DNA of 31,604 nucleotides from a virus: the IMG/VR virus record IMGVR_UViG_3300030105_002676, positions 5,414 to 37,017 of that record. One strand, written 5' to 3'. The translations under genes were made by a program, and so were the position numbers. The notes under the pieces are model-generated. The model saw only the letters and a list, made by a program, of their open reading frames with translations. It was not told the DNA's origin and ran no database searches. Positions 3,844 to 27,895 of this stretch are shown here, piece after piece; the first letter of the stretch is position 1, and each line of letters starts with the position of its first letter.

Positions 3844-4583
3844 GACAATAACTCAATTGGAAATGTTTTTGTCTCCGTATTCATAGAATGTATTAGTTCT
3901 ACATTTCTTTCCTCAATTAATTTGTTATAGTTTTTATAGTTATCTGGTATTCCCACATTGCTCCAAGAAAATGGGTGTGTTAATAATTGTAATTTATTAA
4001 TGTTATTAAAATCTAATGGGTGACCATATTTCCACATATGATTTGAATCTGCTAGATAATGTATTCGTAAATCTTCAGGTCGTTCTCCACTAAAATAGTG
4101 AAAAAATTCTTTAGCATAACAATTAATCTTATCAGGCACTTCAACATATTTTTTTAATAAAGTAGGATTACTCCCACATCTATGAAAAGCATACCTATCA
4201 ACTTCAAACCCATAATAATGTTCAAGGGTTTCTATATCTTTTAATATATAATCTGTTAATTCATCATCTGACATCGATGGTGGATTTTGATGTAATCCAA
4301 TATGATGGCCAAGGTTTTTGATTTCTTTAACTGCCTTGATATTTTTTTCTGAAAGGGCATTGTACGTATTGTTTCTCAATTGTACTGTATATGTAGAATT
4401 TACACCAAGTGAAGATTCAACATTTGCTAACTCTAAAGCTCTATCTACTGAAAATTCTATATCATGCCTTAAAACACAAAACTTCTCCGTATCAAATGTA
4501 ACATCTTTAAAATCAACAATTGGTAATTTACTATTTACTACGTTAATTATATTTTTATAATTTTTATAACTAAAATTATTCAT
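3840..4583 (-). CDS. Polysaccharide deacetylase-like (NodB fold)
   Basis: 247 residues. RHDIE (39-43) matches the shortened first NodB motif in which the second aspartate binds metal, and LGHHIGLHQ (91-99) matches the GHEIxxH histidine motif. YAFHRCG near 131-137 is a plausible third active-site motif. The family removes acetyl groups from N-acetyl sugars in an alpha/beta barrel. The gene sits directly before the formyltransferase with an overlapping stop and start. Deacetylation to a free amine followed by N-formylation is a sensible two-step modification, though this is inference. ATG at 4583 overlaps the preceding stop as ATGA. Confidence 0.7.
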   Translation of the reverse strand: MNNFSYKNYKNIINVVNSKLPIVDFKDVTFDTEKFCVLRHDIEFSVDRALELANVESSLGVNSTYTVQLRNNTYNALSEKNIKAVKEIKNLGHHIGLHQNPPSMSDDELTDYILKDIETLEHYYGFEVDRYAFHRCGSNPTLLKKYVEVPDKINCYAKEFFHYFSGERPEDLRIHYLADSNHMWKYGHPLDFNNINKLQLLTHPFSWSNVGIPDNYKNYNKLIEERNVELIHSMNTETKTFPIELLS

Positions 4584-5566
4584 ATCATATCCTCTATTTT
4601 TTTTCTAACAGCATTATAACTAAATACTTCATTTACTTTATCCCAAGCGTAATGTATAGCATCTAAGTGTTTTTTTGGATCGTTAATATAATCATCTACT
4701 TTATTTTCTAGGATTGACACATCACACGTTGCTGTTTCTGGAAATAAAATATGATGATAATCATTAACACCACCTATGTTTATAGTTCCTGTTGCTGCTA
4801 CTAATGAACATTGATTGCCTGGAAAATAGTCTACAGGGTCTAAATTAAAATGAAATGCGCATGATGACCAGTTCGTTATAAATTCTTTTTGTGACATATA
4901 ATCAAAGTTCTGACCATTTTGCATAGGTTTGAATCTAACTGGTATGTTATATTTATCTCCAATGTATTTTGAAAATTCATATGTATTTGACCTTCGTGCG
5001 ATTGGATTTGGTAAGTATGCCCAAATTGAAAGTTCTTTATCACCATAAAAATTATCATATAGATAATCAACATCAACTGGAATGGGAACAAAATTAAATG
5101 ATTTATCTATACTATCAGCTATCTGCTGATGTTCTTTTAGTTCTGGACGGTTTGTGACTACCACATCACATTCATTTAAAAACTTTATCCTAGCTTTATG
5201 TTTTGGGTGTTCATAGTCATATGGTGGCCCCACCCACAATTCCTTAATCCATCCAGCTATCTTTGCATTTGGATATTTTTTTCTAATTTTATCAACTGTA
5301 TAGTCAGGATTAAGTAAAAGTTTTTCCATAGATAACAATATCAAATCTAACTCCAAATCTGGTAAATCATCTCCATAATCATCCCATTTAATAAAACATC
5401 CATTTTCATATAGTTTGGGGTAATTCCACATACTTACATAAAATTCATTACTAATAGACTCTCCAATAAAACTATAAGGATTACCATTAAAATCATAACC
5501 TTTATTATCTTTTATTTGATAGGATTTTTTTCCACTAACGGTATCTAAAATCATTGCAAAATTCAT
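4580..5566 (-). CDS. Glycosyltransferase, GT-B-like
   Basis: 328 residues. The layout looks like a GT-B fold: an N-terminal half with LDLILLSMEKLL and CDVVVTNRPELKEH (a receptor-domain strand followed by helix), then VPIPVDVDYLY, the usual linker position, and a C-terminal half with CSLVAATGTINIGG and a late LFPETATCDV segment. It ends with a long helix packing back, as these enzymes do. I do not recognise a specific CAZy family and see no clear EX7E motif. ATG at 5566 shares one base with the stop of the preceding GT2 gene (TAATG). Role inferred: adds a sugar in the same glycan pathway. Confidence 0.6.
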   Translation of the reverse strand: MNFAMILDTVSGKKSYQIKDNKGYDFNGNPYSFIGESISNEFYVSMWNYPKLYENGCFIKWDDYGDDLPDLELDLILLSMEKLLLNPDYTVDKIRKKYPNAKIAGWIKELWVGPPYDYEHPKHKARIKFLNECDVVVTNRPELKEHQQIADSIDKSFNFVPIPVDVDYLYDNFYGDKELSIWAYLPNPIARRSNTYEFSKYIGDKYNIPVRFKPMQNGQNFDYMSQKEFITNWSSCAFHFNLDPVDYFPGNQCSLVAATGTINIGGVNDYHHILFPETATCDVSILENKVDDYINDPKKHLDAIHYAWDKVNEVFSYNAVRKKIEDMI

Positions 5567-6213
5567 TATGATTTCCTACTTAATAAATCTCTACTGAAAT
5601 TATCCATGTAGAATTGATTTTGTTGTTCTTGTTTTTCTTTAGTCTTTGGATGGTATAAACTTAGTTCTTGTTGTGGTGGTAAATGTGCATATGTTTTACA
5701 ACCTTTGATGTATTCATGTAATGGTCTTGTCCATCTTATAGACGCATCCCTTCTGAATACTCTTGCTTGATAATCAGGATAGTTTACCCACCCTTTATCT
5801 GATATTTTCCAACCCCATTTTTTAACATCTGCCTCTGTAAACCCATCTACAGTATTTACTCTTGGAATCCATATCAAATCAACACCATTGTTCATTTCTA
5901 TAATTTGTTTTAATTGTAACAATAAAAAATTGTGAGGATACTCATCCGCATCTATGTGAAATATGTAATCACCTGTTGATTTATCTATAATTGAATTTTT
6001 TTGGTCTGCAAAGTTACCATCAAGTTTTCTTTTGTAAACTATAGCTTTATTTTCAGATAGATATTCACCTAATACAGCCTCTACCTTTTCATCATCACCA
6101 TCAACACAAATAACTATCTCATCTTCTTCGTCTATCTTATCTAGTAATATATCTAATAACTTGTTTAGTTCATCTGATTCATTGTGAACTGTAATACCAT
6201 AACTAATTTTCAC
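5566..6213 (-). CDS. Glycosyltransferase family 2
   Basis: 215 residues, a short GT2. It opens with ISYGITVHNESDEL, the typical first strand and N-E loop, and the metal-binding DXD is HIDADEY at 87-92. IRWTRPLHEYI near 160-170 resembles the acceptor and catalytic region of WaaE/beta-glucosyl-type GT2 enzymes that act on LPS core. The start is GTG at 6213, overlapping the preceding gene by 11 bases. It should transfer a sugar from a nucleotide-sugar donor in the cytoplasm; there is no membrane segment. The family call is solid, the acceptor is unknown. Confidence 0.85.
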   Translation of the reverse strand: MKISYGITVHNESDELNKLLDILLDKIDEEDEIVICVDGDDEKVEAVLGEYLSENKAIVYKRKLDGNFADQKNSIIDKSTGDYIFHIDADEYPHNFLLLQLKQIIEMNNGVDLIWIPRVNTVDGFTEADVKKWGWKISDKGWVNYPDYQARVFRRDASIRWTRPLHEYIKGCKTYAHLPPQQELSLYHPKTKEKQEQQNQFYMDNFSRDLLSRKS

Positions 6214-6667
6214 TCAGTACCTCACTTAGTCCTCTTGGTAATTTTATTGGTTCTAAGAATACACCTGATTTTTTTGCTTCCGTATAATCATATGTTCTAT
6301 AAATCGAATGTGATTTTATATATTTTTTTATTCTAGTATACACAGCTTTAGTAGCACCACGATTTCCAACTCCCATCACCTCTACTCTATATATCTCATC
6401 ATCTCCACTTAAAACCTGTATTTCACCCATACTTTCTAATAGTTGTACAAGTTTTGGTTTATTTCTTATAGTTGGAATGTTACCACTTGTTTCTAATTTC
6501 AATCCTATCAGGTGAAATGTTTTAGAACCATCTTTTTTAGTATATGGCATTTTTGGATTCATAACCAATAAGGTGGTTAAAATTCCAACTGGTTTTTTAC
6601 CTTTATATCTAAATGATATAATATCACCGGCTTGTACTTTACCCCAAGTATATATCTGTTTAGGCAT
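6203..6667 (-). CDS. Conserved hypothetical protein
   Basis: 154 residues, soluble, basic. The N-terminus (WGKVQAGDIISFRYKGKKPVGIL) reads like a small beta-barrel of SH3 or KOW type, followed by a charged helical tail ending in a leucine-rich segment. No catalytic motif is visible. It is coupled to the zinc-ribbon gene before it (8-base overlap) and to the GT2 gene after it (11-base overlap). The pair between glycosyltransferases could be regulatory or structural; I cannot assign a function. Confidence 0.55.
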   Translation of the reverse strand: MPKQIYTWGKVQAGDIISFRYKGKKPVGILTTLLVMNPKMPYTKKDGSKTFHLIGLKLETSGNIPTIRNKPKLVQLLESMGEIQVLSGDDEIYRVEVMGVGNRGATKAVYTRIKKYIKSHSIYRTYDYTEAKKSGVFLEPIKLPRGLSEVLSEN

Positions 6668-7109
6668 TTTTACTCATATCCCTTGTTATTCCCATCAACT
6701 CACATGCTTTGATGAACTCATATTTACCAAATGTTTTCGCATTGTTAACATCTAGTCTTTGAGTGTGGTTGTCATACATAACACGCTCTTCTTTTGGTAT
6801 ATCTACGACTTCAGCGTATTTCCAAACATATGTATCAACTTCACCTTCTGGAAAAATCATTCCCAATTTACCCATATTAATTACCGATGGAAACCATACT
6901 ATGTTTCGTTCTGTATCTTCAAATTTAGAATCTCGTACTAACTTTGGTGATTTTTTAAGATTATCAATAAGTTTTAAACTTCCTATTTCGTAACGAGAAT
7001 CACTCATAAATCCACAATTAAAACATAAATACGAACTGAATGTTTCTTGCATTTCTTCAAAGCAATGATTTGTATCAAAACAAACTGGACAAGTTATTAT
7101 TTTTTCCAT
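6660..7109 (-). CDS. Zinc-ribbon protein of unknown function
   Basis: 149 residues with an N-terminal zinc ribbon made of CPVC (C7, C10) and CFNC (C29, C32). The rest has no recognisable motif beyond FGKYEFIKACELMG near the C-terminus. Zinc ribbons of this form bind nucleic acid or protein partners. It begins one base after the stop of the preceding GT4 gene region and overlaps the next gene by 8 bases. No function is assigned. Confidence 0.55.
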   Translation of the reverse strand: MEKIITCPVCFDTNHCFEEMQETFSSYLCFNCGFMSDSRYEIGSLKLIDNLKKSPKLVRDSKFEDTERNIVWFPSVINMGKLGMIFPEGEVDTYVWKYAEVVDIPKEERVMYDNHTQRLDVNNAKTFGKYEFIKACELMGITRDMSKNA

Positions 7110-7110
7110 A

Positions 7111-8442
7111 TTACACCTTCTTTAATTTTGGTAGTTTTATTTTTGGAGCCTCTACGTTATTAACTTTTGTTAACTTTGGCAACTTCAATTTTATTTCTTT
7201 AGGAAATTCAGGAACATATCTATCTAGTAATAGCCCAAATTCTCTAGTCATTGCATCTAAAGAAAATTTAGCTTTATTATAAATAGTTAATTTTTTAGCA
7301 GGAAGTGTATATTTTCTATAATTCTTGTATACATCTTTCATCATACGAGAAGCTTCATTATAATTAACTGTAAACCATTTCATACCATCTTGATGAAACT
7401 CATCTGGAAAAGAACCCCTTGCAACATCTGTTAATTCACCATTGAGTAAAACCGCATTTGGTCTTTTCAAGAAATCAGTATGACCACTCCAATTGGGTGC
7501 AATCACAGGTTTATTACTCAATGAAGCTTCTAGTAATGGTCTACCAAAACCTTCACCATGTGTCAATGATACATGAGCTTTTACTTTAGGATGATTGTAT
7601 AATTCATTAATTTCTGCATCCATAAAATCACCATGAAATAAATATACGTTAGGTAAGTCTCCATCAATTGAAACTTTGATTTCATCAATTTTAACCAACA
7701 GAGTTTGTCTATCTAATACAGAGTAACCGGCTCCACTAGTTTTCAGTATCAAAGCTGGTTTGTTTTTCATGTTCTTAAATGTTTCTAAAAATACCTTTAC
7801 TAACATACCCGTATCTTTTCTATCTTGTCCAAGTCCACCCTGCAACCAATGTCCTACATATAAAAAATTAAATTTTTCAGGTATTTTATCCATCTCAGCT
7901 AGAAGACTTTTTGAAAACTCATTAGTTATTTTATATATGTTGGTATCTGCACCCTCAAATAAAACTTCCATTGGTTTTTCTAATTTTAATTCACCAGTTT
8001 TTTGTTTTGTTCTATCATCTTCTATATCAAATTTAATGATTTTTAAATTATCTCTTACGAAGGTAGCTGGAACTATATTTAAATCCATTTTATTCATACC
8101 TTGTATCCAATGAGGATGACATAAAGTAGTTTCCAATCCAGCTGTAATACCTATATTATATTTTCCAACGGTTTGAAACTCAGTTGGTATAACAATATGT
8201 ATATGCAATTCTGGTTGATTTGGTAAGTTAGGTTCTGGTAATAACCTATCAATTATCATCTTATCATTTGGGTCATCGTAATGTAAAGCATTCATTGGTG
8301 TATTACCCCAACGAACCGGCCAAATTTTTATATCGTATTTATCTAATTTAATTAATGATCTACATATATCTCTACTATGTGCACCATAACCACTTCGGGT
8401 TGCAACTGGTGCTGTGACCAAACATACTGGTTTAGAACTCAT
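7111..8442 (-). CDS. Glycosyltransferase family 4
   Basis: 443 residues, full length for a GT-B enzyme. The N-terminus has the glycine-bearing loop RSGYGAHSRD that contacts the donor, and the C-terminal half contains HGEGFGRPLLEAS followed by NKPVIAPNWSGHTDF, the EX7E-type motif of GT4 enzymes. A lysine- and proline-rich tail with two copies of KLPKL ends the protein, which is unusual and may mediate binding. It lies 10 bases after the other GT4 gene. The target could be a surface glycan, virion protein or modified DNA; the downstream sugar-modifying genes favour a glycan. Confidence 0.85.
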   Translation of the reverse strand: MSSKPVCLVTAPVATRSGYGAHSRDICRSLIKLDKYDIKIWPVRWGNTPMNALHYDDPNDKMIIDRLLPEPNLPNQPELHIHIVIPTEFQTVGKYNIGITAGLETTLCHPHWIQGMNKMDLNIVPATFVRDNLKIIKFDIEDDRTKQKTGELKLEKPMEVLFEGADTNIYKITNEFSKSLLAEMDKIPEKFNFLYVGHWLQGGLGQDRKDTGMLVKVFLETFKNMKNKPALILKTSGAGYSVLDRQTLLVKIDEIKVSIDGDLPNVYLFHGDFMDAEINELYNHPKVKAHVSLTHGEGFGRPLLEASLSNKPVIAPNWSGHTDFLKRPNAVLLNGELTDVARGSFPDEFHQDGMKWFTVNYNEASRMMKDVYKNYRKYTLPAKKLTIYNKAKFSLDAMTREFGLLLDRYVPEFPKEIKLKLPKLTKVNNVEAPKIKLPKLKKV

Positions 8443-8452
8443 ATTTTACTCC

Positions 8453-9844
8453 TTATGCTTTATATATACTATAACGTTTTCTTGGTTTCCATTTATCAAA
8501 TGTAGTATCCATCTGATCGATAAAATTTTGTGACATGGCTGTAGCAGACATCATTGAATCAGTACTCATTACGAATTCATATCCCTTCATACCACACTCA
8601 TCTCTTTTATCCTTACCCATATCATACCATTTTTTGATAGCATCGGCCGCATCATCAAATCTACATCTATCATCCCAAATGTAAGGTGTTGGTATTGAAC
8701 CAGCCAATGATCTATTGGATGGCCATATTGGGTTTACCCACTCACCCCAAGTTAAATCAGGATTATCTTTCCATTTTCTATCATCATGTAATGAATGTAT
8801 TTCATCATAATCACCTGCAGTTAATAGTTTATCATTTAATTTAAAACCACATTGATCTTGTAATCCACCTGTAACATTTACCACAATTGGTGTTCCAGCC
8901 ATTAATGACTCACACGTTCCCAATCCAAACCCCTCATTGGATGCCATATTAATTGTAACGTCTGCCATGTTATATAAACAATTTAATTTGACTGGATCTA
9001 TTTTTTTAGCACTAAAGTATATTTTACATTCAGAAGCTAATCTACTAGCAACGACTGGTAAATCCGTACCATTTTCATCTCTTGGTTGTGTATGCATTAT
9101 AAGAGCACATTTATCAGCTTGTTCTTTCGGTAACATATCACAAAATGTTTTAAATGCCAATACAACATCACCAGGATTCTTACGGCGAATATTTCTGTTA
9201 TTGTAAAATACTATAAATTCAACTTTACTATCTATATTAAGTTGTCTCCTCATCTCCAACATAAGTTTTTGGTCATTATCATCATTGGCTATAGGTTTGA
9301 AGTGAGTATTACTTACACCATGTGGTAAATAAGTACAATCCCAATCTGTTCTCGGCTTTTGTTTTGCAACTTCTTTTACAATAGCTACAGTTTGTTTTGA
9401 TATATTCATTATTAAATCAGAACACTCGTAGAAAAATTCATTGTAATGTGGAGCTGGCCAATCATCCCAAATATTATAATAAAATATAGGAATATTTTGT
9501 CTGATTTCATGTTCCATTTCATATAACCATCCCCAAAATCTTGGATCGGTATAATGTAGGATTGCATCAGGATTTTCTCTTCTCATTACCTCTCTAACTA
9601 CTTCTTGACTACCATATCCATCTGTAGGATATATAGTTAGTGATGCATCCGTTACACCTGTTGTATTAACTGCAGCTTCGTTCATGTTTATAATTTTACC
9701 ATTGTCAGGATGTTTAATTGCACCACCAAGTTGAACCCAATCATAGTGATGTATAGTTCCCATGACAAATTCTTTTGACATCGTTCCAACACCAGATGAC
9801 ATTCTTAGATCATCTGATAATAATAGAATCTTTTTCTTAGCCAT
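8453..9844 (-). CDS. Glycosyltransferase family 4
   Basis: 463 residues with the GT-B layout. MSSGVGTMSKEF near 16-27 is the donor-side glycine loop, FIVFYNNRNIRRKNP begins the C-terminal domain, and NEGFGLGTCESLMAGTPIVV is the EX7E motif. ATG at 9844 overlaps the preceding small gene by 8 bases. The paired GT4 genes open the glycan cassette. Similar pairs occur in large marine myoviruses; here the following formyltransferase, deacetylase and methyltransferase make glycan assembly more likely than simple glucosylation of modified bases. Confidence 0.85.
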   Translation of the reverse strand: MAKKKILLLSDDLRMSSGVGTMSKEFVMGTIHHYDWVQLGGAIKHPDNGKIINMNEAAVNTTGVTDASLTIYPTDGYGSQEVVREVMRRENPDAILHYTDPRFWGWLYEMEHEIRQNIPIFYYNIWDDWPAPHYNEFFYECSDLIMNISKQTVAIVKEVAKQKPRTDWDCTYLPHGVSNTHFKPIANDDNDQKLMLEMRRQLNIDSKVEFIVFYNNRNIRRKNPGDVVLAFKTFCDMLPKEQADKCALIMHTQPRDENGTDLPVVASRLASECKIYFSAKKIDPVKLNCLYNMADVTINMASNEGFGLGTCESLMAGTPIVVNVTGGLQDQCGFKLNDKLLTAGDYDEIHSLHDDRKWKDNPDLTWGEWVNPIWPSNRSLAGSIPTPYIWDDRCRFDDAADAIKKWYDMGKDKRDECGMKGYEFVMSTDSMMSATAMSQNFIDQMDTTFDKWKPRKRYSIYKA

Positions 9845-16834: not shown

Positions 16835-19351
16835 TCAAAAAAATCTTTCTATTGTTTTAGTAGCATCTGTTGGTTCACTCCAACCAAGTGCTACATAGAA
16901 CATCATTAGTTTTTTATGTAAAGCTTGTCTATAAAGTTTATCTGGATTAATAAATTGTTTAATAAAATTTATTATTTCTATTGGGTCTTCGTGACCTTTA
17001 TAAGCCATTGTCTCCAACCCAAGTGGATTGTTCTTTAAATAAACCCATTTAATTTTTTCACCATTATATATTGGTGAATATCTCTTTGATATTTTTAAAT
17101 GTTTTAACATATCATTATAGAATAATGAACTCTTTACATGAATAGGTGTTCCCAACTTATAAGCCTTGAATATAACACCATCTTTAACCTTATATTTATC
17201 AACTTTTTTAACACCCGTTGGTATAGCTATTTTATCAAAATCCATCAACTTCATACTATTTCTAAAGTTTATTATAAATTTATCCAATTTTTCTTTTGGT
17301 ACATCCATTAAAATATCTTCTAGTAACTTACTCAACATATCTCTCATAGCAGTTGGAAAACTTGACCTAACAGTATCTAAACCCTTTACCATCATTTTAT
17401 TTACCATCTTACCATTATCATTTATAATTTTTAAACCATATCGTTTCTTGGTAACAAATAAACCACTCTTTGCAATAACCTCTTGTTTGATATCAAAACG
17501 ATGTGTATTTAAATTACAAAACTTTTTAGCGAAGAAATCATAACTATTATTTAAATATGTCTGAACTTCATCTGCTATATTTAAAATAGCCTTTGACATT
17601 TTTTCGTCATCACTAATTTTTATATCTGGAAATCTTTTTTGAACTATAGGTGTAGCAGAAAAGAAAACAGAATCTGTATCTATATAAATACAATGATCTT
17701 TGGTATCACCGAGTTCTTTATTGTAAAAGTTATTTGCAATCTTTTTAGTAAATTTAATTAATGATTGGCCTGTATAAGTTACAGCTTCAGCATTGTCTAA
17801 ATCATAAAATCTAAATGATGGTAATCCCAATACACCATATAAACTATTCAAGAGAATTTTTTGTAGATGTTGTCTCCTATCAAAGTAATCTGATTTTTCT
17901 TTATCACCATCCTCAAAAAACTTTTTAGATAGTTTTCTATACTCAACCCTCTCATCAAACCATTTTCTTAATAGAGCAGGTATTAATCCATCTTTATCTG
18001 TACGATACATTACTCCGTTTGTAGCAACACCGATTTCTTTATCAGATAAATAATCTTGTAATTCGGTTTCAGTAAACTTCCCCAATACCTTACCACTATT
18101 TGTTACTGAATATGTTTTTTTATTATCTTTTTTCAAAAACTCTTCAGGATTCCAACCTTCTAGTTTACCAATTTTTGTCTCAGGTGATATGTTTACGGAC
18201 ATAATACATGATGGGTACATAGAAGTAATGTCTAAATCAAATACCCAATTATGTTTTCCTTTTTGTGGGTCTTGAACATAAGCACCTACAAATTTATCAT
18301 CATTTAATCTGTTTAATTTTTTTGGTTTATTAGGTGCTATAATATTTTGTTTTTTTAGATAGGTTAAAATAGCTCCCTCTAAATAACGAGAACTCATAAA
18401 AATATCTTCATATGGACAATGACCAAGATGAGCTAGACCTCTTGCAACCTCAATAAAATCTAATTTATCATCTAATTTCTTAACTAACTTGACATCTTGT
18501 AAGTTATATTGTACAAACTTATCAATATCATTTTCATACAAATCGTTTAATGTTCCCTCATAGGCTACTTTTGTTTCACCAACTTCAATACTTCCAATAT
18601 TATCTAATCTATATGATGATTTTTCACTAAAAGTAAACTTTCTATATAATTGTAAATAATCTAAAATACTAACACCAGCTATTTTATATTTACCATTACC
18701 AAAATCACTCCAATGTACACGCATAATTGGTGATAATAAATTAGCTACATTTTTACCAACTACATTACAAGCCCTATTGTAAAGATATGGAACATCAAAA
18801 AACTCTACATTCCAACCTGTTAATATTGTTGGTTTTATTTCCATATACTTTTCAAAGAAAGCATTTATTAAATCATACTCATCAGTAAAGGATATTGTTG
18901 TCTCGTCACCATTTACTGATGTTTTGGTTTCATCTAAATTTAACTTGTTTGAAGTGTCTAGTACGTAACAAAAGTATTCATCTGTTCTCGGATCATTAAA
19001 TCCTATTGCAGTTATTCTATTCTCTGCTTTTACTACGTCTGGAAATCCTGTTGTAACCTCTACCTCGATATCAAATATCATCGTCTTATGACCAATAGAT
19101 ACATCATCTGAATCTGTATAATTATCTACTAAGACTCGAATTTCAGGATTGACATCGGACTCAAATAAATCTTTTTGTTCTTTTTCCCAACCAGTTATTC
19201 TTTTTAATTTGTCACCATATAAAGAAACGTAAGTACCAACGTTACTCTTTGTGTAAGCATATTTTTTATAACGAAATGTTTGGTGACCAAATTTATCATC
19301 CCATATATGCATCTTGTTTAATCTTCTATCGTAAAATATATTTTGAAACAA
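16835..19351 (-). CDS. 43: DNA polymerase, family B, gp43-like
   Basis: 838 residues, no intein. The 3'-5' exonuclease is intact: Exo I FDIEVE (93-98), Exo II NVEFFD (181-186), Exo III YNLQDVKLV (282-290). Polymerase motif A is DLDITSMYPS (372-381), motif B KILLNSLYG (498-506), motif C YIDTDS (556-561). It replicates the genome with gp45, gp44/62 and gp32. No ATG is available near the frame's beginning: a stop lies five codons before TTG 19351, which I take as start because the first strand is then complete; ATG 19312 would cut it. A strong promoter lies at 19412-19441. Confidence 0.95.
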   Translation of the reverse strand: MFQNIFYDRRLNKMHIWDDKFGHQTFRYKKYAYTKSNVGTYVSLYGDKLKRITGWEKEQKDLFESDVNPEIRVLVDNYTDSDDVSIGHKTMIFDIEVEVTTGFPDVVKAENRITAIGFNDPRTDEYFCYVLDTSNKLNLDETKTSVNGDETTISFTDEYDLINAFFEKYMEIKPTILTGWNVEFFDVPYLYNRACNVVGKNVANLLSPIMRVHWSDFGNGKYKIAGVSILDYLQLYRKFTFSEKSSYRLDNIGSIEVGETKVAYEGTLNDLYENDIDKFVQYNLQDVKLVKKLDDKLDFIEVARGLAHLGHCPYEDIFMSSRYLEGAILTYLKKQNIIAPNKPKKLNRLNDDKFVGAYVQDPQKGKHNWVFDLDITSMYPSCIMSVNISPETKIGKLEGWNPEEFLKKDNKKTYSVTNSGKVLGKFTETELQDYLSDKEIGVATNGVMYRTDKDGLIPALLRKWFDERVEYRKLSKKFFEDGDKEKSDYFDRRQHLQKILLNSLYGVLGLPSFRFYDLDNAEAVTYTGQSLIKFTKKIANNFYNKELGDTKDHCIYIDTDSVFFSATPIVQKRFPDIKISDDEKMSKAILNIADEVQTYLNNSYDFFAKKFCNLNTHRFDIKQEVIAKSGLFVTKKRYGLKIINDNGKMVNKMMVKGLDTVRSSFPTAMRDMLSKLLEDILMDVPKEKLDKFIINFRNSMKLMDFDKIAIPTGVKKVDKYKVKDGVIFKAYKLGTPIHVKSSLFYNDMLKHLKISKRYSPIYNGEKIKWVYLKNNPLGLETMAYKGHEDPIEIINFIKQFINPDKLYRQALHKKLMMFYVALGWSEPTDATKTIERFF

Positions 19352-19411
19352 ATTATAATTCTCTCATTTTAATGTGTGATGTGGTTGTAAAATACCCTAT
19401 TTCCATATGTA

Positions 19412-19441
19412 AATATACAACAAAAAACCTATACTTGTCAA
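19412..19441 (-). promoter_or_regulatory. Sigma70-like promoter, copy 2 (drives DNA polymerase)
   Basis: On the minus strand: TTGACA at 19441-19436, an 18-base spacer, TATATT at 19417-19412, leaving a leader of about 50 bases before the polymerase start. Immediately upstream is the A-rich tract shared with the promoter at 12586-12615. It lies just past the terminator of the receptor gene, so the two units are separated. Confidence 0.8.
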
Positions 19442-19461
19442 GTACTTTTTTATTTTATTTT

Positions 19462-19491
19462 AATAAAACGGGGGATATATTTCAATCCCCC
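19462..19491 (-). terminator. Intrinsic terminator after the receptor gene
   Basis: Minus-strand hairpin GGGGGAT (19491-19485), 8-base loop, ATCCCCC (19476-19470), followed by GTTTTATT and further T-rich sequence. It begins 12 bases past the receptor stop codon and lies in the correct orientation to end nrdJ-receptor transcripts. Confidence 0.85.
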
Positions 19492-19502
19492 AATTTTATA
19501 TT

Positions 19503-22235
19503 TTAGAAGTTAACCGATAGTCCTACGTTGTAGTGTCTTGGTGTTCCAAGAAATACTTCAGCGTTATGAGCAGCGTGAACTTTGTCACCATACCCATTGT
19601 ATTTACTATTGTCAACAGCATCTTGAACATATAGATTGTCAAGAGCATTAAAAACATGACCACTAATAGTCATATCCAATCCAGCAATTTCTGGTAGTTT
19701 GTATGATAGATGTAAGTCCAACTTTGAGTAGCCAGGAGCATTCCAAACTTGTGCCCTATCAGCATCACCATCGATCTCACGAGACTCTGGTGACCAATCA
19801 GCATAGTTATCATCATACATTCTGAAAAGTCCTTGTAGATTGAGTCCTTTGATTGGTTTAATAGTTAATCCACCAACATAAGCTGTTTGTGGCATATCAC
19901 CTACCATTAGTCCATCAAGTGCATATTCATATTCAGTAGTCATTGTTCCAACAATTTGACCTTCTTCATTATATTGCATTTCTTGATAATCACCTTTGGC
20001 GTCACCATCGAACTTCCAAGTACCCTTACTAAATGCTAAGTCCAAATCAATCATTTCGTGAAGAGCAACTTTCGCTTCTACTTCCCAACCTGTATGACTT
20101 TGAGCTACACCTGTTAGATAGATAATGTCCGTATCACCACTGTCACCAGCTCCGGTTTCAACCGATTTGGTAAGGTTTCTATCGTTCCATTGAGTATTAT
20201 AAGAACTCAACTTAACTCCAACCTTATCACTTGCATACTTACCACCAAACTCAAAACTTGTAAATTTTTCGTTATCAGGATTAGATGCAACACTACCATC
20301 TTCGGCAATTACATTATCAAGGATAGGTGGTTTTTCAACGTACCCGCCATTTACAAAAGCTGACATTCTATCATCAAGGTTATAGATACCACCACCTTTC
20401 ACTTGGAAAGTTGTAATAGCATCAGCCTCAATTTTTTTAGCATCAACAGCAAAATGGTCAATGAAAGAATATCCAATAGTAGATATTCCACCCATGCCAT
20501 ATAAATTGAATTTTCGTACATCATATTTACCTTGTACAAAAGCTCCAAACCAATCAACTGTGGTTTCATTGTGATAGGCAATTATATCACCTAACCCAAC
20601 CTTCTTACCATCAACAGCATTGTCATCAGCATAGTCAACATAATACTCACCACCTAATAAATCACGAACTTCACGAGCGTGTTCTATACCAGCAGTTCGC
20701 CAATCAATACCAACTTGAACCTCTAAGTCCTCGTTAACATCATAGTTTAATTTGGAAATCAAACCATAAGTGTTTTGTCTATTGATTGAATTACGAAGAA
20801 TACCCGTTGAACGATTTTCTGTATCAGAAAATGCTGAATCTACATTAGCAGAGTTCTGAGCAATCTCAGCATTCCAATCCCACATCCACGGAGAACTTGC
20901 ATACCAAGAGTTTCCTTCAACAGCAGGAGTTCTTGAAACACTACCATAAGTTCCTGTACCACCACCAGAACCACCACTCCAATAAAGAACAGAACTTAAT
21001 GTCATTTGTTCATTTAAAGTGTAGAAATGATTCATGTTAGCAAGTGGTTTATGAAAGAAATTTTCTCTTTCATTTAAGAAATTAGAACCAAACCTATCCG
21101 ATGTTTTATCACCATACATATACCAATATTGTTGGCCTGTGTATGAAGCATCAACCGGTGCAACGTTTTGATTAAAAAATCTACCACCTTCGGTTTCAAA
21201 CTTAGCACTATCTGCAAAAGCCATTGGATCATATCCATCGATATCACCAGCTAACTCTTGTGAGTAAGTAGCAATATTTTGTTTGTATAGATTTTGTCCA
21301 TGTCTCTGAGGAGCTCCGATCGCATATAACTCAAATCGCTGTTTGTCACTTACGGCATATGAACCACCGAAGTAGTATGCCCATGCGTCTGTCCAAGTTC
21401 CATCGATAAAACCATCACCAGTTTTACGAACTATCGTTCCACTTAATGCTAGTTTATCTTTGATTAGACCAGAGTTATAATTCAAAGTAGTTTTTAGAAA
21501 TCCACCTTCACCTACTTCTTGTTTAAACTTACCACCTTTATCGTGTGATGCTGGATCAGTAATAATATTCATAGTTCCACCAATAGAAGGTGTTGCTAGA
21601 TTTACAGCTGATAGTCCTCGTTGCATCTGAATTGATTGTGCAGCATCTCCCACACCATCCCAATTAGACCAATAAACCCATCCGTTTTCCATATCGTTCT
21701 GTGGAACACCGTTTATCATTACAGCAACGTTTCGTTGATTGAATCCACGAACATTGATACGAGCATCTCCTGCTCCACCACCCTGCTGTGTAGCGTAAAC
21801 ACTTGGAGTCATATTAAGTGCCATTGGAATATCTTGTGAACCAAGACGTATTTCCATTTCAGCCTTATCTATCGTAGTGTAAGCGACAGGTGTTTTTTCA
21901 TCAGCACGAGAAGCTAAAACTTCAAGAGCTGACATAGCTAAAACATCTTCATCTAATACAAAGTTTAATGTTCCAACTATATCGTTCACCACGACATCTA
22001 GTGTCTGTGATGTATATCCAATGAATGAAGCCGTTAATGTTTGTGTTCCTTCAGCTCCGATTTTGATGGAATACTTACCGTCAGTATCAGTTACTCCACC
22101 TTTATCAGTTCCAACAACAACCACATTAGCTCCAACCAATGGTTCAGTACCACCATTAACAACTCCGACAATAGTTTGTGCAAACACTCCTGTCGTCATT
22201 AATAATAATGTTATTAGATTACGTTTAATATTCAT
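19503..22235 (-). CDS. TonB-dependent outer-membrane receptor
   Basis: 910 residues, complete. The order is: signal peptide (1-19, basic start, hydrophobic LITLLLMTTGV, AQ cleavage site); carboxypeptidase-D regulatory-like domain (about 22-95, with GVVNGG and DTDGKYSI); a possible TonB box region at 100-120; plug domain (about 120-228, with INVRGFNQRNVAVMINGVP and NLATPSIGGTMNIIT); then a strand-rich barrel ending HYNVGLSVNF, the aromatic C-terminus used in outer-membrane assembly. Such proteins import large ligands using TonB energy. The start is ATG 22235, with AGGAGA seven bases upstream; upstream in-frame codons lack a site. It follows nrdJ by 66 bases and is closed by a terminator. Substrate unknown. 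No SusD-like or TonB/ExbBD gene is present. A host gene captured by a phage is inferred. Confidence 0.93.
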   Translation of the reverse strand: MNIKRNLITLLLMTTGVFAQTIVGVVNGGTEPLVGANVVVVGTDKGGVTDTDGKYSIKIGAEGTQTLTASFIGYTSQTLDVVVNDIVGTLNFVLDEDVLAMSALEVLASRADEKTPVAYTTIDKAEMEIRLGSQDIPMALNMTPSVYATQQGGGAGDARINVRGFNQRNVAVMINGVPQNDMENGWVYWSNWDGVGDAAQSIQMQRGLSAVNLATPSIGGTMNIITDPASHDKGGKFKQEVGEGGFLKTTLNYNSGLIKDKLALSGTIVRKTGDGFIDGTWTDAWAYYFGGSYAVSDKQRFELYAIGAPQRHGQNLYKQNIATYSQELAGDIDGYDPMAFADSAKFETEGGRFFNQNVAPVDASYTGQQYWYMYGDKTSDRFGSNFLNERENFFHKPLANMNHFYTLNEQMTLSSVLYWSGGSGGGTGTYGSVSRTPAVEGNSWYASSPWMWDWNAEIAQNSANVDSAFSDTENRSTGILRNSINRQNTYGLISKLNYDVNEDLEVQVGIDWRTAGIEHAREVRDLLGGEYYVDYADDNAVDGKKVGLGDIIAYHNETTVDWFGAFVQGKYDVRKFNLYGMGGISTIGYSFIDHFAVDAKKIEADAITTFQVKGGGIYNLDDRMSAFVNGGYVEKPPILDNVIAEDGSVASNPDNEKFTSFEFGGKYASDKVGVKLSSYNTQWNDRNLTKSVETGAGDSGDTDIIYLTGVAQSHTGWEVEAKVALHEMIDLDLAFSKGTWKFDGDAKGDYQEMQYNEEGQIVGTMTTEYEYALDGLMVGDMPQTAYVGGLTIKPIKGLNLQGLFRMYDDNYADWSPESREIDGDADRAQVWNAPGYSKLDLHLSYKLPEIAGLDMTISGHVFNALDNLYVQDAVDNSKYNGYGDKVHAAHNAEVFLGTPRHYNVGLSVNF

Positions 22236-22261
22236 TAACGTTCTCCTTGATTTACGATTAA

Positions 22262-22285
22262 GGCACATTTTTTATCAGGTGTGCC
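22262..22285 (-). other. Hairpin in the nrdJ-receptor spacer
   Basis: GGCACA and TGTGCC form a 6-base-pair stem around a 12-base A-rich loop, between the nrdJ stop and the receptor ribosome binding site. No T tract follows in the minus direction, so it looks more like a processing or stability element than a terminator. It contains a 10-base sequence also found in the gp32-uvsX hairpin. Confidence 0.5.
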
Positions 22286-22301
22286 GTCTGCCTGTTCGCA
22301 T

Positions 22302-24314
22302 TTAGTTTGCATAATCTTGGTCATCATTATCACCAGTCATCGGTACAATTTCACACGAATCATTGTTGCAGAATTTATCTATCTCTGCTTCTTCATTTTT
22401 TATTACACCAAAAGATAACTTACCAAGTTTTTTAACTTCTTCATTGTAAGTATCTTCATCAATAGCTTCATAAGGCATTTGTTTGTAAGCACCATAGTCA
22501 TGTCTAGGTAATAAACTAATACCCTTTAAATGGTATTGATAATAGTTTAGAGCAGGAGCAATTTGGTCTGCTTCTGTATCTGGATTGAATGTAACTGTAC
22601 AACTTACTTGGTTATCAGCCCAATGTCTTTGTAGGAATGCTGCTAAACTGAATTGTTCCCAAATAGAAAGTTCAGCTGCTGTTCTAATTCCCTCACCGAC
22701 ATCTACTGGAACTTCAACAACCATTGTTGTGTCCTCTGAACCAAATGCTGGTTCTAATTTATAGTTAGCCTTTTTTAATGGTTCAATTAACTCTGAATAT
22801 TTGGATAACCTTACTCTTCTTATGTAAAATCTTGATTCAGGATAATGAAGTCCTGGTGTAGCACCAGCTAAGAGTGATACTGTTCCACTTGGTTTAACCG
22901 AAGTAGTTTTAATTGACTTTGGTACAGCAAACCAATCACTATATTGATTATCCCATTCTTGGATTGTATCGTAGCCTGTTTCCAACCATTTTTGAAACTC
23001 ACCCAAACCACGATTAGTAACAAATTGAGCAACACCACTAACTGAACAACCAATTCGTCTGTTTCTCAACATAACTCGGTTTGTATCCGGCCAATGGGTT
23101 CTTCCCAATGTAACTGTTTTAGCATACAGATAAGCATACTTCAATGTTCGTTGATAATCTTCTAATGAATCATGATTATCTGGAAATGTTTCTACTAAAC
23201 AACATAACTCATATGATTCCAATGATTGTTCTAAACAAGGATTACCACCCATAACTCTGTGGTCTTTGTTATCCCCACCATTCTTCATACGAGAATATTT
23301 TCTCATGTTATCTAGCCAAGCAAAACCAGGCTCACCATTATCCACAATTCGTTCGGCAGCCGCTGTATAATCCATACCCAATTCTGCGAATATACTATTA
23401 TTAGATGTCCATCCATATTGATCCCTATGTGGGTTAACTTTATAATTTTTTAAATCTAAGTATTCTTCATCATACGGATCACCAAATACAATTTCAGCAG
23501 TTCGTCTAACGTTACCAGCCACTACACATTTGCCGATAAGATTCATTATATCTACGATTGTTGTTATTGTTATTGGTTCTCCACTATTTTTTTCCAATAC
23601 TTCTCTGATAGTAATATGCACTTCTTCTAATGGTTCATATCCACTTGAAACACCACCAAATCCAGCTATTGGAGCTCCTTCAGGTCTAACTAACGAATAA
23701 TCAAATTTTACAGAAGCAGTTCCATGAAAATATGACTCCAATAATACCTTTAAGGATTCAACCCAACCTTCTCGGTCATCAGGTACTACAAATGTGGTTT
23801 CATCACGAGATTCATCTACACCCTTAACAATAATTTCACCAGCACCCTTACAATCAAATCCTACACCGACACCTAACATACTTGCATCCATAAGGAAACA
23901 AAAAGGTTTTGCCATATCGTCTTTGAGTGTTTTAGTTGATACGAAAGCACAATTATTGAGGGCGGCGTATAAACCACGTTCTTCGGTTATGGCAGTTCCC
24001 ATAGCCCAAAGTCCGCGACCAGGTGGCAAGAACTTCATATTGAAGATACGCTCATACATCTCTTGTGCTGACTTTTGAGCTTGCCACGGATTCCACCCTA
24101 ATTGATGTGAGTCAATGTGATTTTTTTGCATAGAGTAAGTTCCCTCTACGACTCGTTGTACGGTTTCCCACCAACGTTCATTTTTTCCATCTGGTTTAAT
24201 TCTTGAATAGGTTCTCATGTAAACTAATTCACCTAATCCGTTAAAACCGAATGGTGCTTTTTTTCTTTTGTATTTTGCTATAAAATTGTCGGATAATAAA
24301 AACTTCTTACTCAT
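22302..24314 (-). CDS. nrdJ: Ribonucleoside-triphosphate reductase, B12-dependent class II, monomeric
   Basis: 670 residues. It has the features of the Lactobacillus-type adenosylcobalamin-dependent reductase: C122 in NNCAFVS, C359 and E361 in NPCLE, C370 eleven residues after C359, and a C-terminal redox pair C649/C654 (CNNDSC). KPSGTVSLLAGATPG and the early FLPPGRGLWAMGT are also conserved. It makes deoxyribonucleoside triphosphates without oxygen and needs adenosylcobalamin from the host. AGGA lies about 10 bases before ATG 24314. A thioredoxin-fold protein encoded near 30 kb could re-reduce the C-terminal cysteines. The next gene is the outer-membrane receptor. Confidence 0.95.
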   Translation of the reverse strand: MSKKFLLSDNFIAKYKRKKAPFGFNGLGELVYMRTYSRIKPDGKNERWWETVQRVVEGTYSMQKNHIDSHQLGWNPWQAQKSAQEMYERIFNMKFLPPGRGLWAMGTAITEERGLYAALNNCAFVSTKTLKDDMAKPFCFLMDASMLGVGVGFDCKGAGEIIVKGVDESRDETTFVVPDDREGWVESLKVLLESYFHGTASVKFDYSLVRPEGAPIAGFGGVSSGYEPLEEVHITIREVLEKNSGEPITITTIVDIMNLIGKCVVAGNVRRTAEIVFGDPYDEEYLDLKNYKVNPHRDQYGWTSNNSIFAELGMDYTAAAERIVDNGEPGFAWLDNMRKYSRMKNGGDNKDHRVMGGNPCLEQSLESYELCCLVETFPDNHDSLEDYQRTLKYAYLYAKTVTLGRTHWPDTNRVMLRNRRIGCSVSGVAQFVTNRGLGEFQKWLETGYDTIQEWDNQYSDWFAVPKSIKTTSVKPSGTVSLLAGATPGLHYPESRFYIRRVRLSKYSELIEPLKKANYKLEPAFGSEDTTMVVEVPVDVGEGIRTAAELSIWEQFSLAAFLQRHWADNQVSCTVTFNPDTEADQIAPALNYYQYHLKGISLLPRHDYGAYKQMPYEAIDEDTYNEEVKKLGKLSFGVIKNEEAEIDKFCNNDSCEIVPMTGDNDDQDYAN

Positions 24315-24400
24315 ATACTTAATTCCTGTTTAATTGTTAACGATTTTGTGTGGAGGTCTAACATAAATATTAGCTCAACTTATTCTTTTTCTTATAAATG

Positions 24401-25474
24401 TCATTTTTTAAAAACAAATATCGGTTCATACTTGTATCCAGCACCCATTATACTTGATAATGTTAATTCTATTGTTTGCTCTTGTTTAAAGCCCAATTCA
24501 GTTGCAATTCTTATTGTATCCTCTTCTATAAACTTATATTTTGGTGTATTTGCTATGTTAATCAACATATACTTATTACCTTTTAATCCGTTATAGCAGT
24601 TTCTAATTGTTTTGTATAAAAATCCATTTACCCATTCTTCCTTAGTTGGATATTTTTTAAAACTTTGGGTTTCCTCATCAGCGTATTTCTCTGTATCAAA
24701 ATAAGGTGGTGAGGTAAAACATAAGTCCAAAGATTCTTTATCTGGTTCAAATTCTTCACTACCTAATTTATGTAATTCTACTGACTTTGTCAAGTAATTA
24801 AAATCTTTTTTTATCTTTTGTAATCCTTCAAATGTTAAACTTGATGGTTCTGTTCCAATATACTTAGGTCTTGAACTTGCTAAAAATCCAATCAACCTAC
24901 CACCCCAACCACAACTCATATCCCAAATAGCATCACCACCAAACTTTTCATATATCATTTTAGCAGCAGTTGGTCTGAAATTAGATACTGCTTGTGTACC
25001 TGTATAGATTTTTAGGGATTGTCTAAGTCTGTTTTCACGAAATGTATTCTTTGTACCTTCATTTTCACCTTTATATGTGGTCGAACACCATCTCCAACAC
25101 TTTTTGATAACAGCTTTAAATTTATCATCATCTAAAAAGGTTTCCATCGGTGTTCTTGTAGCATTACCACATTGAACTTCCCAAAAATGTGGAAAATAAG
25201 TCCAAGCTAATCGTAAACCATGCATTGTCTGAACAATTTTATTATCTTTGAATATCGTATCTATATCAAACCTTTGCATCTTCCTCATATGCTGATGTTT
25301 TTCATCTTCTCGTATTTTATAATGTGGAAATCCATGTTTTCTGTAATAATTAAAAATAATTTCTACACCATCATCAACATCATGGTCATCAAGATTATTA
25401 ATAACCTTTTCAAATTCAACATCATTGTTATCATAACCAAAAACATCTGTTAATATAGTAGGATTGTTATTCAC
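24401..25474 (-). CDS. SAM-dependent methyltransferase with SPPY motif
   Basis: 357 residues. IWDMSCGWGGRLIGF (183-197) is motif I and LCFTSPPYFDTEKY (251-264) motif IV, so the order is opposite to the other methyltransferase in this window. SPPY indicates an exocyclic amine target, N4-cytosine or N6-adenine, or a modified base. About 180 N-terminal residues with HFWEVQCGNATRTP and several tryptophans precede the catalytic domain and may bind DNA. The start is GTG 25474, overlapping the helicase gene by 8 bases. An RNA target cannot be excluded. Confidence 0.8.
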   Translation of the reverse strand: MNNNPTILTDVFGYDNNDVEFEKVINNLDDHDVDDGVEIIFNYYRKHGFPHYKIREDEKHQHMRKMQRFDIDTIFKDNKIVQTMHGLRLAWTYFPHFWEVQCGNATRTPMETFLDDDKFKAVIKKCWRWCSTTYKGENEGTKNTFRENRLRQSLKIYTGTQAVSNFRPTAAKMIYEKFGGDAIWDMSCGWGGRLIGFLASSRPKYIGTEPSSLTFEGLQKIKKDFNYLTKSVELHKLGSEEFEPDKESLDLCFTSPPYFDTEKYADEETQSFKKYPTKEEWVNGFLYKTIRNCYNGLKGNKYMLINIANTPKYKFIEEDTIRIATELGFKQEQTIELTLSSIMGAGYKYEPIFVFKK

Positions 25475-26828
25475 TCATTAAATCTTCATAACGAGCAGAT
25501 AATATAGCCTTTGTTTGATTATCCCTATTATTAATTTTATGTTGAACACCCTTACCTTGAACCGAATTACTTTCAAATATTTCTATCTTACCAATGTTTG
25601 TATTGATTTTTGCTGGATAAGTTAACCCATCAGGACCAAACCTATTCTTAATAACATGAAATCTACCTGTATTACCTATCTTATCTTCTATCTTACGACT
25701 TAACGATATAACAAAATCTGCTGTCATTACTTTAGCATAGGATTCAGCAACTTTACTAGCTTCAATCACATCTTCATCCAAAGCACTTCTATTAGCTTGA
25801 CTTGCCGTCCATATTGGAATTTGCATCTCACCAGCCAAACCACGTAAGTCCTCATAGATACTCCCAAGAGCATGTCGCATCTCAGTATGTTTATTTACAT
25901 CTTTCATAATATCAGCGTAATCAACCAATACCATATCAACTTTTGTTCCAAATGTTGTTACTTTTTTCAAATGAGCAGAAAGAGTATTTACTGTACAAGC
26001 TTTTGTTGGATAATACTTAATGGTTAGGTTACCTTTAAGATCGTATAGTTTTTCCATCACCTCTTCTTTATGATATTTAAGATTTTGACTTTCTACGCCT
26101 GTAAAGATACTATCGTATCTCAAACCAACATAAGCTTCATTTAATTCTAATGTATAATGAACTACATTTAAACCTTGTGAGATAGCATATGCTCCCATAG
26201 AACTTAATACCCAAGATTTACCAATACCAGCAGGTGCAACAACCACACCCAATTCACCAGCACCTAATCCACCTTGCATCAATTCATTTATTATATCCCA
26301 TGGCGTAGGTGATGTAATACGGGCAGTTTCTGAATATCTTTCCTCTATATCTTGTAAATAATCATGTCCTAGGTTTCTTTCAACTCCAGCTTGCATAGCA
26401 GAGTCGATAAGTGATTTTATTTCATCAGTATTACCATCCACCTCTAATATTTGTGCTGATTGAATAACAGCATCCTTTAAAACTTGTGTTTTATGAAATT
26501 CTAATGCTTTATCTTTGATATATTCTAAATCTTCGGCTTCTATACTCTTAAAAATCTCTTTTAGTGAGTCTTTCACGGTAACCTGAAGTAATTCTGATTC
26601 TATTTCCTTTATTTTAATCTTAAATACTTCCATAGTAATGGTTGTCTTATATTCGTTGTAATATCCACGAATTTCTTTAACAATCCACTTAAATCCATCA
26701 TTATTAATGTATTTTTCATCTAATATATCAACAATTTGTTCCAAGAACAGCTTATCTGTTATTAAACATACAATAAACTTTACTTGAAAGCTATATCCAA
26801 ACTCCGAAATGTTTTTTGTCTTATTCAT
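25467..26828 (-). CDS. 41: Replicative DNA helicase, DnaB/gp41-like
   Basis: 453 residues. Walker A is APAGIGKS (198-205, preceded by the GGLGAGELGVV strand), a glutamate-bearing VVHYTLELNEA follows, and Walker B is MVLVDYAD. QANRS matches the DnaB motif H4 region that contacts DNA. The N-terminal helical part should mediate hexamer formation and primase contact. ATG 26828 overlaps the preceding stop as ATGA; a TTG five codons upstream is not needed. Hexameric 5'-3' unwinding at the fork is expected. No primase gene is visible in this window. Confidence 0.88.
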   Translation of the reverse strand: MNKTKNISEFGYSFQVKFIVCLITDKLFLEQIVDILDEKYINNDGFKWIVKEIRGYYNEYKTTITMEVFKIKIKEIESELLQVTVKDSLKEIFKSIEAEDLEYIKDKALEFHKTQVLKDAVIQSAQILEVDGNTDEIKSLIDSAMQAGVERNLGHDYLQDIEERYSETARITSPTPWDIINELMQGGLGAGELGVVVAPAGIGKSWVLSSMGAYAISQGLNVVHYTLELNEAYVGLRYDSIFTGVESQNLKYHKEEVMEKLYDLKGNLTIKYYPTKACTVNTLSAHLKKVTTFGTKVDMVLVDYADIMKDVNKHTEMRHALGSIYEDLRGLAGEMQIPIWTASQANRSALDEDVIEASKVAESYAKVMTADFVISLSRKIEDKIGNTGRFHVIKNRFGPDGLTYPAKINTNIGKIEIFESNSVQGKGVQHKINNRDNQTKAILSARYEDLMSE

Positions 26829-27895
26829 TTTTGATTTTTCCAATGATGGTCAAGTATATGAAACTCAGTTATCCAATTATCAAAATTAGGTATATGTCCC
26901 CATAATTTATCCTTTACTAACAGAGTTTGTAACTTATACTTTACCAACGATGGTGCCATTTGATTAACGGCGTCTCCTATTTTTAGTTTTATCTGATTTT
27001 TGATATCAGGATCACCCAATTGCATTAATAAATAATTCCTCATTATTATTAATTTATTATCCTGTATTAATTGGGATACTCTCGTAGATTTACCTTGTGC
27101 CATATCCAAAAGTTCTTTTGTATTAACTTCCTTATCTTCCGTTAGCAACGGGAACTCTTTTATTAAGGTCTTAACACCTACACCCCTTACTCCAGGTATA
27201 TCGTCTGATTTATCCCCATCTACCACCCTACAAGTTAATACATTTTGCGGGTATACTCCAAACTCTTTTTTTATTAAATCTCTATCATATAGAACTTTCT
27301 TGGTTGGAGAATAAAGTTTTACTCTTTCATCCACTAGCTGATAAAAATCTTTATCGGAAGACATTATGGTAAATCTACTATTTTTTAAAACTACAGTAGG
27401 TATATAACTCATAATATCATCTGCTTCTAAGTTATCAACTGAAATCATAGTCATAGGTAGGTGTTCTAAATATTCAACTAATCGTTTAAGTTGCATTCCC
27501 ATACTTTCTCGTTCATTTTGAGGTCCTCCACCCCAATCAACATTACGATTTAATCTACTTCTAACTTTACGACCAGATTTATATTGTGGGTATATTTTTT
27601 GTCGTGGTTTAGAAGAGTTTTTACCATCAAACACAATAATACAACGAGTTGGTTTAAACTTGTTAATTGTGTATCGTATAGATTTTAAAAACCCTACTAA
27701 ACCACCTACATGAGCACCATCTTCATTCAAAGAAGGATTGACGCTGAAACTACGAATAAATGTATTAAAACCATCAACCAATAAAACATGGTCGTTTAAA
27801 TCCTTAGTTTCTGGATTTACATCAATCTCTTCTTTAACTTCATAGAATCTTTTTGATAATAGATTCTTGTTGCCATCAATCATCCGCAAACTCAT
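26825..27895 (-). CDS. rnh: 5'-3' exonuclease / RNase H (FEN-type, T4 Rnh-like)
   Basis: 356 residues. The acidic metal-binding series is clear: LLVDGFN, VFDGKNS, DNLEADDIMSY, SSDKDFYQL and DGDKSDDIPGVRGVG (the helix-hairpin-helix with D-D-I-P-G-V). These define the FEN/5'-exonuclease superfamily, in T4 the enzyme that removes RNA primers and processes Okazaki fragments. ATG 27895 overlaps uvsX by 20 bases; ATG 27883 would overlap by 8 and keep all motifs, so the first four residues are uncertain. The position between recombinase and helicase fits a replication role. Confidence 0.88.
   Translation of the reverse strand: MSLRMIDGNKNLLSKRFYEVKEEIDVNPETKDLNDHVLLVDGFNTFIRSFSVNPSLNEDGAHVGGLVGFLKSIRYTINKFKPTRCIIVFDGKNSSKPRQKIYPQYKSGRKVRSRLNRNVDWGGGPQNERESMGMQLKRLVEYLEHLPMTMISVDNLEADDIMSYIPTVVLKNSRFTIMSSDKDFYQLVDERVKLYSPTKKVLYDRDLIKKEFGVYPQNVLTCRVVDGDKSDDIPGVRGVGVKTLIKEFPLLTEDKEVNTKELLDMAQGKSTRVSQLIQDNKLIIMRNYLLMQLGDPDIKNQIKLKIGDAVNQMAPSLVKYKLQTLLVKDKLWGHIPNFDNWITEFHILDHHWKNQK

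Follow-up and report, generated by a model that had tools for sequence, protein, structure and literature searches.

A TonB-dependent receptor gene with a conserved RNA pseudoknot leader in marine T4-like phages

In a widespread lineage of uncultured T4-like phages from the sea, an intact gene for a TonB-dependent receptor (TBDR) sits among the replication genes, preceded by a conserved and covarying RNA pseudoknot. The gene was analyzed in a window of 31,604 nucleotides, which makes up most of a 37,017-base IMG/VR virus record; the TBDR gene, its leader, the two genes flanking it, and the elements between them lie on its minus strand. In the reading that we favor, with a probability of roughly 55%, these phages, which most likely infect SAR406 bacteria, took the TBDR from a host as an auxiliary transport gene, and it encodes a working importer whose synthesis is tuned by the pseudoknot.

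The TBDR gene spans positions 22235 to 19503, from its ATG start codon at 22235 to the end of its stop codon at 19503. Its product of 910 amino acids begins with a likely signal peptide (residues 1 to 19; 22179 to 22235), assigned by eye from the sequence rather than by a predictor. This is followed by a carboxypeptidase-D-like N-terminal domain (residues 25 to 102; 21930 to 22163; Pfam PF13715, CarbopepD_reg_2, 5.7e-16), a putative TonB box, SALEVLASRA (residues 102 to 111; 21903 to 21932), a plug domain (residues 113 to 221; 21573 to 21899; Pfam PF07715, 5.5e-14), and a beta barrel (residues 234 to 910; 19506 to 21536) delimited from predicted secondary structure and Foldseek. Both Pfam domains exceed their cut-offs, the plug with 53 bits against 23.9, and the C-terminal residue is phenylalanine. 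The TonB box was placed by its position before the plug and by its consensus, which is common to the phage proteins and their host counterparts; TonB binding is putative. An AlphaFold2 (AF2) model built on 58 aligned sequences forms a plugged beta barrel (mean pLDDT, 77.6; pTM, 0.74), in which the plug is the least confident region. When this model was compared with the PDB using Foldseek, all 50 matches listed were TonB-dependent transporters, with Fiu as the best (3e-31) and PqqU and FhuA next. The open reading frame (ORF), Pfam, AF2, and Foldseek therefore agree with the sequence-only reading, which had called a complete 910-residue TBDR with a carboxypeptidase-D-like domain, a plug, and a barrel ending in F. 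An identity as SusC/RagA was not found, since TIGR04056 reaches only 63 bits against a curated cut-off of 368. Consensus scans also marked a terminator-like hairpin directly 3' of the TBDR stop (19469 to 19492), a kind of match no commoner than chance, and a promoter-like site, TTGACA-18-TATATT, upstream of the DNA polymerase gene (19412 to 19441; 11/12), at counts not above chance.

The coordinates confirm that the TBDR is located between, and on the same strand as, two replication genes, as first described. Upstream lies nrdJ (22302 to 24314), whose product is a class II, B12-dependent ribonucleotide reductase of the monomeric type (Pfam RNR_Alpha and RNR-II insertion domain; best PDB match, 1l1l), and downstream lies the gene for a family B DNA polymerase, PolB (16835 to 19351; Pfam, PHROG 262). 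The same block holds homologs of uvsX, gp41, gp32, and the clamp loader. Relatives of the TBDR are encoded in 328 IMG/VR stretches, the best 80 of which are 100 to 73% identical to it. We distinguished 115 viral TBDR copies, 10 of which are cut by a contig end, leaving 105 that could be judged for nrdJ: the gene is found just upstream in 101 of them and is missing there in 4. In addition, polB lies downstream in 84 of the 115. The TBDR is a feature of a whole phage lineage and not a quirk of one contig. Its GC content, 38% against 30% for the window, could point to an assembly chimera or host contamination; the probability of this is negligible, given that an identical gene order recurs in hundreds of contigs and that the GC content at third codon positions (0.22) is similar to that of other phage genes. 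Because many independent metagenome contigs show the same order, a chimera is excluded for practical purposes, and the similar third-position GC content indicates that the raised overall value reflects protein composition and that the acquisition is old.

These phages are a genuine T4-like lineage. T4-type major head, tail sheath, and baseplate proteins are encoded on a 130-kb contig that carries the TBDR, and the nearest named phage, Microcystis phage Mel-JY01, shares only 45% (PolB) and 51% (head protein) identity. Because the viral sequences were retrieved as matches to the window and to one host ortholog, their diversity is under-sampled. Within this sample, the presence of the TBDR varies among sister phages, some of which have none, and the gene can also sit at other genome positions, away from nrdJ. 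Two near-syntenic sister phages (L164 and L178), in which polB follows nrdJ after approximately 74 nt, offer candidate empty sites for the TBDR and its leader.

Some further observations concern the surrounding genes. Across 112 loci, the identities of gp41 (left) and polB (right) of the replication block (16835 to 26843) to those of the window are uncorrelated (rho, −0.08). The median identity to the window is 86% for nrdJ and 78% for the TBDR, far above the values for gp41 (55%) and polB (59%), and one locus (L025) has identities of 100% for nrdJ, 79% for the TBDR, and 51% for polB. This pattern suggests that the block is mosaic, with exchange breakpoints around an nrdJ-TBDR cassette. The nrdJ match of another phage (G022:C1:15741-17714; open frame of 662 amino acids) contains one in-frame TAA in the search, and a related phage has a manA RNA upstream (RF01745, 73 bits; L032:2826-3026). 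The ORF inserted between nrdJ and the TBDR in two loci (L013 and L040) is glutamine synthetase-like by eye only. At the other end of the window, positions 1 to 9844 hold a cluster of glycosyltransferase, sugar, and formyl-transfer-like genes, assigned by eye and running past the window, which are possibly genes for surface-glycan or virion decoration.

Among the relatives of the phage TBDR, 58 loci came from prokaryote genomes, nearly all of them Neomarinimicrobiota (SAR406/Fidelibacterota). Loci L082 and L125, binned as Flavobacteriales and Euryarchaeota, respectively, were counted as viral despite these cellular labels; phage replication genes flank their TBDRs. In two quick trees, all viral TBDRs form one clade nested among Neomarinimicrobiota (SH-aLRT, 99 to 100), and the sister group of this clade differs between the trees. 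The clade includes one host-labeled sequence, L083, on a long branch and from a 4.3-kb metagenome-assembled genome contig. On this contig, from a Neomarinimicrobiota bin, a pair of tandem TBDR starts, of which one falls within the phage clade, adjoins an aminotransferase-like ORF; it may represent a host copy, a transfer, or misbinning. Every one of 16 host genomes contains a single ortholog, 58 to 68% identical to the phage protein over its full length, besides 7 to 19 weaker TBDR matches per genome; in G014, the ortholog is interrupted by one stop. Six host ortholog loci were read and have no obvious substrate operon, nor was a SusD partner noticed beside them, their neighbors being read by eye and not with a profile. 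The trees thus put the protein inside a host family of outer-membrane receptors and bear out the earlier proposal of an auxiliary gene taken from a host: the phage TBDR was apparently acquired once, from SAR406 bacteria. Judging from this ancestry, the phages most likely infect Neomarinimicrobiota. At the deep chlorophyll maximum, TBDRs of Marinisoma (SAR406) have been noted among abundant transcripts (PMC13096325), so this class of receptor matters to the presumed host.

The phage TBDR is intact, as the sequence-only reading had inferred, and it is under purifying selection. The median dN/dS ratio is 0.10 (285 pairs), compared to 0.06 to 0.07 for nrdJ, polB, gp41, and uvsX. The plug hardly varies among 104 phage TBDR sequences (mean entropy, 0.19), and the most variable folded part is the N-terminal domain. 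The long loops, as assigned from the AF2 model, have an entropy of 0.67, approximately that of the strands (0.64), and those of the host proteins are higher (1.11). TBDRs are common phage receptors, and a receptor made by the phage itself could serve in superinfection exclusion or as a decoy, by occupying, replacing, or absorbing the binding of rival phages or of bacteriocins. The structural matches listed include FhuA in complex with T5 pb5 and FhuA with Llp, an exclusion lipoprotein, and the varying presence of the gene among sister phages would also fit such a role. However, the long loops, which presumably face outward from the cell, do not exceed the strands in variability and vary less than their host counterparts, the most conserved parts (plug and TonB box) are dispensable for a decoy, and a full-length receptor would offer a binding site instead of hiding one. 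We consider this role quite unlikely. An importer fits better than a decoy because the plug and TonB box are conserved and the loops are not diversified. Four possible roles had been listed at the outset, namely, raised nutrient uptake, an altered cell surface, a decoy, and a block to superinfection; the conserved plug, TonB box, and substrate-side loops favor the first, and the decoy and the superinfection block have become less favored.

The neighboring nrdJ raises the possibility that the substrate is cobalamin, imported for the adjacent B12-dependent enzyme. NrdJ is of the monomeric adenosylcobalamin-dependent type, and its gene is just upstream of the TBDR in those 101 of 105 copies. The host genomes point elsewhere: 13 of the 16 have a cobalamin riboswitch, and these riboswitches adjoin other TBDRs, with plug domains in 7 of the 10 flanking ORFs scanned. 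These ORFs are cut by locus ends; four of the five tested resemble BtuB, with scores below the cut-off, and a single one matches the phage TBDR, at 18% only. No cobalamin riboswitch was detected within the window or near eight host orthologs, and no BtuB model (NCBIfam) is among the matches of the window TBDR (P0001). Moreover, there are phages with nrdJ that lack the TBDR, and the TBDR may be far from nrdJ, as in G021. The cobalamin idea is weakened by these results, and we regard it as very improbable.

Nearly every locus carries the sequence GCGGACAGGCAGNNGACACACCTGTNNAAAAATGTGTC, or a close variant of it, in the stretch that separates nrdJ from the TBDR start. This sequence can be folded into a 34-nt H-type RNA pseudoknot (22262 to 22295), with the interleaved helices ACAGG with CCTGT and GACACA with TGTGTC. 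Helix P1 joins 22295-22291 to 22279-22275, with four of its five pairs present in the window, and helix P2 joins 22285-22280 to 22267-22262, leaving an A-rich loop (22274-22268). A covariance model matches positions 22259 to 22299 with 60.2 bits. The pseudoknot ends 26 nt before the TBDR ATG in the window, and the corresponding linker is 24 to 39 nt long and A-rich (57% A) across phages. In 67 distinct variants of the element, 98.1% of the pair cells contain standard pairs, and 6 of the 11 pairs show changes on both sides. Double-change cells number 47, compared to 9.4 in shuffles, and controls with slid pairings collapse. Mapped on the TBDR tree, pair 18-37 changed from A-U to G-C or back no fewer than 10 times, with intermediates absent from the sample, and pair 6-24 alternated between C-G and U-A no fewer than 6 times. 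Since both show repeated compensatory changes, P1 and P2 are each supported independently; we infer from the geometry that they form simultaneously. Loop bases C10, A11, and five A residues are invariant.

The TBDR has its own ribosome binding site, AAGGAG (22248-22243), read directly from the sequence. The sequence-only reading was right about this site and had missed the structured RNA in front of it. Sequestration of the Shine-Dalgarno sequence was not found. In folding predictions, the TBDR initiation region is more stable than those of five of six control genes (median, −8.2 kcal/mol), with uvsX being similar (−8.0), and the AUG is mostly unpaired (0.73). In many phages, a weak hairpin is predicted whose loop holds the start codon, in registers that differ, and not clearly beyond what control genes show.

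The pseudoknot is tightly linked to the TBDR. Of 104 distinct viral TBDR genes, two start too near a contig end, and the element is present in all 102 testable leaders, including one with a shortened loop (L014) and one with Ns in the linker (L125). It stays with the TBDR where the gene sits at other loci (L071, L239, L251, and L254). It is also kept with the TBDR where an ORF has been inserted after nrdJ (L013 and L040), and in L040 it follows this ORF and adjoins the TBDR. A pattern scan of IMG/VR gave at least 119 matches; of the 80 kept, 75 precede a recognizable TBDR and the other five end at a locus edge. When 11 phage genomes with the TBDR were searched with the covariance model, each gave a single strong copy, and G028, which lacks the TBDR, gave none. 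The element was likewise not found in TBDR-less phages L164, L178, L182, L191, L194, L196-L198, L211, L213, and L215, nor upstream of the host orthologs. No significant E-value was obtained in the 16 host genomes, where the best 150 candidates per genome were scored with a model whose E-values are rough. Inheritance of the element from the host was rejected on these grounds. A frameshift element for nrdJ was also rejected, as the pseudoknot sits after the nrdJ stop at a variable distance and moves with the TBDR. Rfam scans with 4227 models, at gathering and permissive thresholds, returned no match to the leader and no relevant known riboswitch, with the sensitivity limited by covariance models that omit pseudoknots. 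As the element is tied to the TBDR and was not found in the hosts, TBDR-less phages, and Rfam models searched, it appears to have arisen, or to have been recruited, after the TBDR entered phages.

The pseudoknot probably controls TBDR production, although such a structure alone does not demonstrate regulation. One could also regard it as a mere mRNA stabilizer or a processing boundary between nrdJ and the TBDR, as it often lies only a few bases from the nrdJ stop. This is unlikely in view of its movement with the TBDR, away from nrdJ in four loci and past an inserted gene in L040, and of its absence after nrdJ in the TBDR-less phages searched. Two kinds of regulatory element were considered. 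Small pseudoknot riboswitches, such as preQ1-I, measure approximately 34 nt and have an A-rich loop, and the TBDR leader is alike in both respects, without an Rfam match even at permissive thresholds. As expected of a riboswitch, its conserved structure covaries and precedes a gene for a transporter. It is plausible that the leader is a new RNA class, and we tentatively suggest that it could be a phage-specific riboswitch sensing the nutrient imported by the TBDR or its product.

The other kind is an operator that controls translation when a phage protein binds it, for instance a gp32-like single-stranded DNA-binding protein. The precedent is T4 gene 32, in which a pseudoknot upstream of the initiation region nucleates gp32 binding (PMC3014915, PMC535899). 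Like that operator, the TBDR leader has an H-type pseudoknot ahead of the initiation region of a T4-like phage gene; the genes for gp32-like protein, UvsX, and gp41 share the TBDR block, and the linker is rich in A. It differs in gene and sequence, and its linker to the ATG is shorter than the T4 operator stretch. In addition, the copy at the TBDR is the only one found per phage genome, so the gp32 gene of the phage itself does not carry the element, and the invariant loop bases resemble a specific binding pocket more. An operator of this type is therefore possible, though doubtful. In many TBDR phages, the gp32 leader contains a short GGTTAC...GTAAC hairpin with A-rich sequence after it, possibly a separate operator.

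Our favored reading of a regulated importer would involve the following steps. During infection, host machinery would export the phage TBDR and insert it in the host outer membrane, where the host TonB-ExbBD complex would energize it. During replication of the phage DNA, the receptor would then take up whatever nutrient the single-copy ortholog of the host imports, and the pseudoknot would act post-transcriptionally, on the translation or stability of the TBDR message.

Phage-encoded TBDRs are known as such. A TBDR annotated as SusC occurs in the marine megaphage Mar_Mega_1 and in LR745206, where it was proposed to raise uptake during infection (Michniewski 2021, PMC9723777). Those phages resemble ours in being marine and encoding a TBDR; however, they belong to another phage family and carry another receptor (approximately 28% identity over 22% of the protein for LR745206), and we found no RNA leader described for it. 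In BFVD, the sole full-length TBDR-like match to the phage TBDR is 12% identical. The Neomarinimicrobiota orthologs are much closer and differ in lacking the pseudoknot leader and the surrounding phage replication genes. Among host-derived nutrient-uptake genes of T4-like marine phages, cyanophage pstS encodes a phosphate-binding protein (PMC10976474); this is a periplasmic protein under host PhoBR control, in contrast to an outer-membrane transporter with an RNA pseudoknot. We found no report of the SAR406-derived TBDR lineage or of its RNA leader in the open-access literature that was searched, and both are apparently unreported.

Annotated phage genomes almost never include an outer-membrane transporter, and a widespread marine lineage here keeps one. 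The ancestry of this gene suggests SAR406 as the host, a group with few known phages. The pairing of the TBDR with a private structured RNA makes phage steering of outer-membrane nutrient uptake directly testable, and the leader may offer a handle on which nutrient the TBDR imports. If the riboswitch reading is true, the phage would adjust the nutrient uptake of its host during replication.
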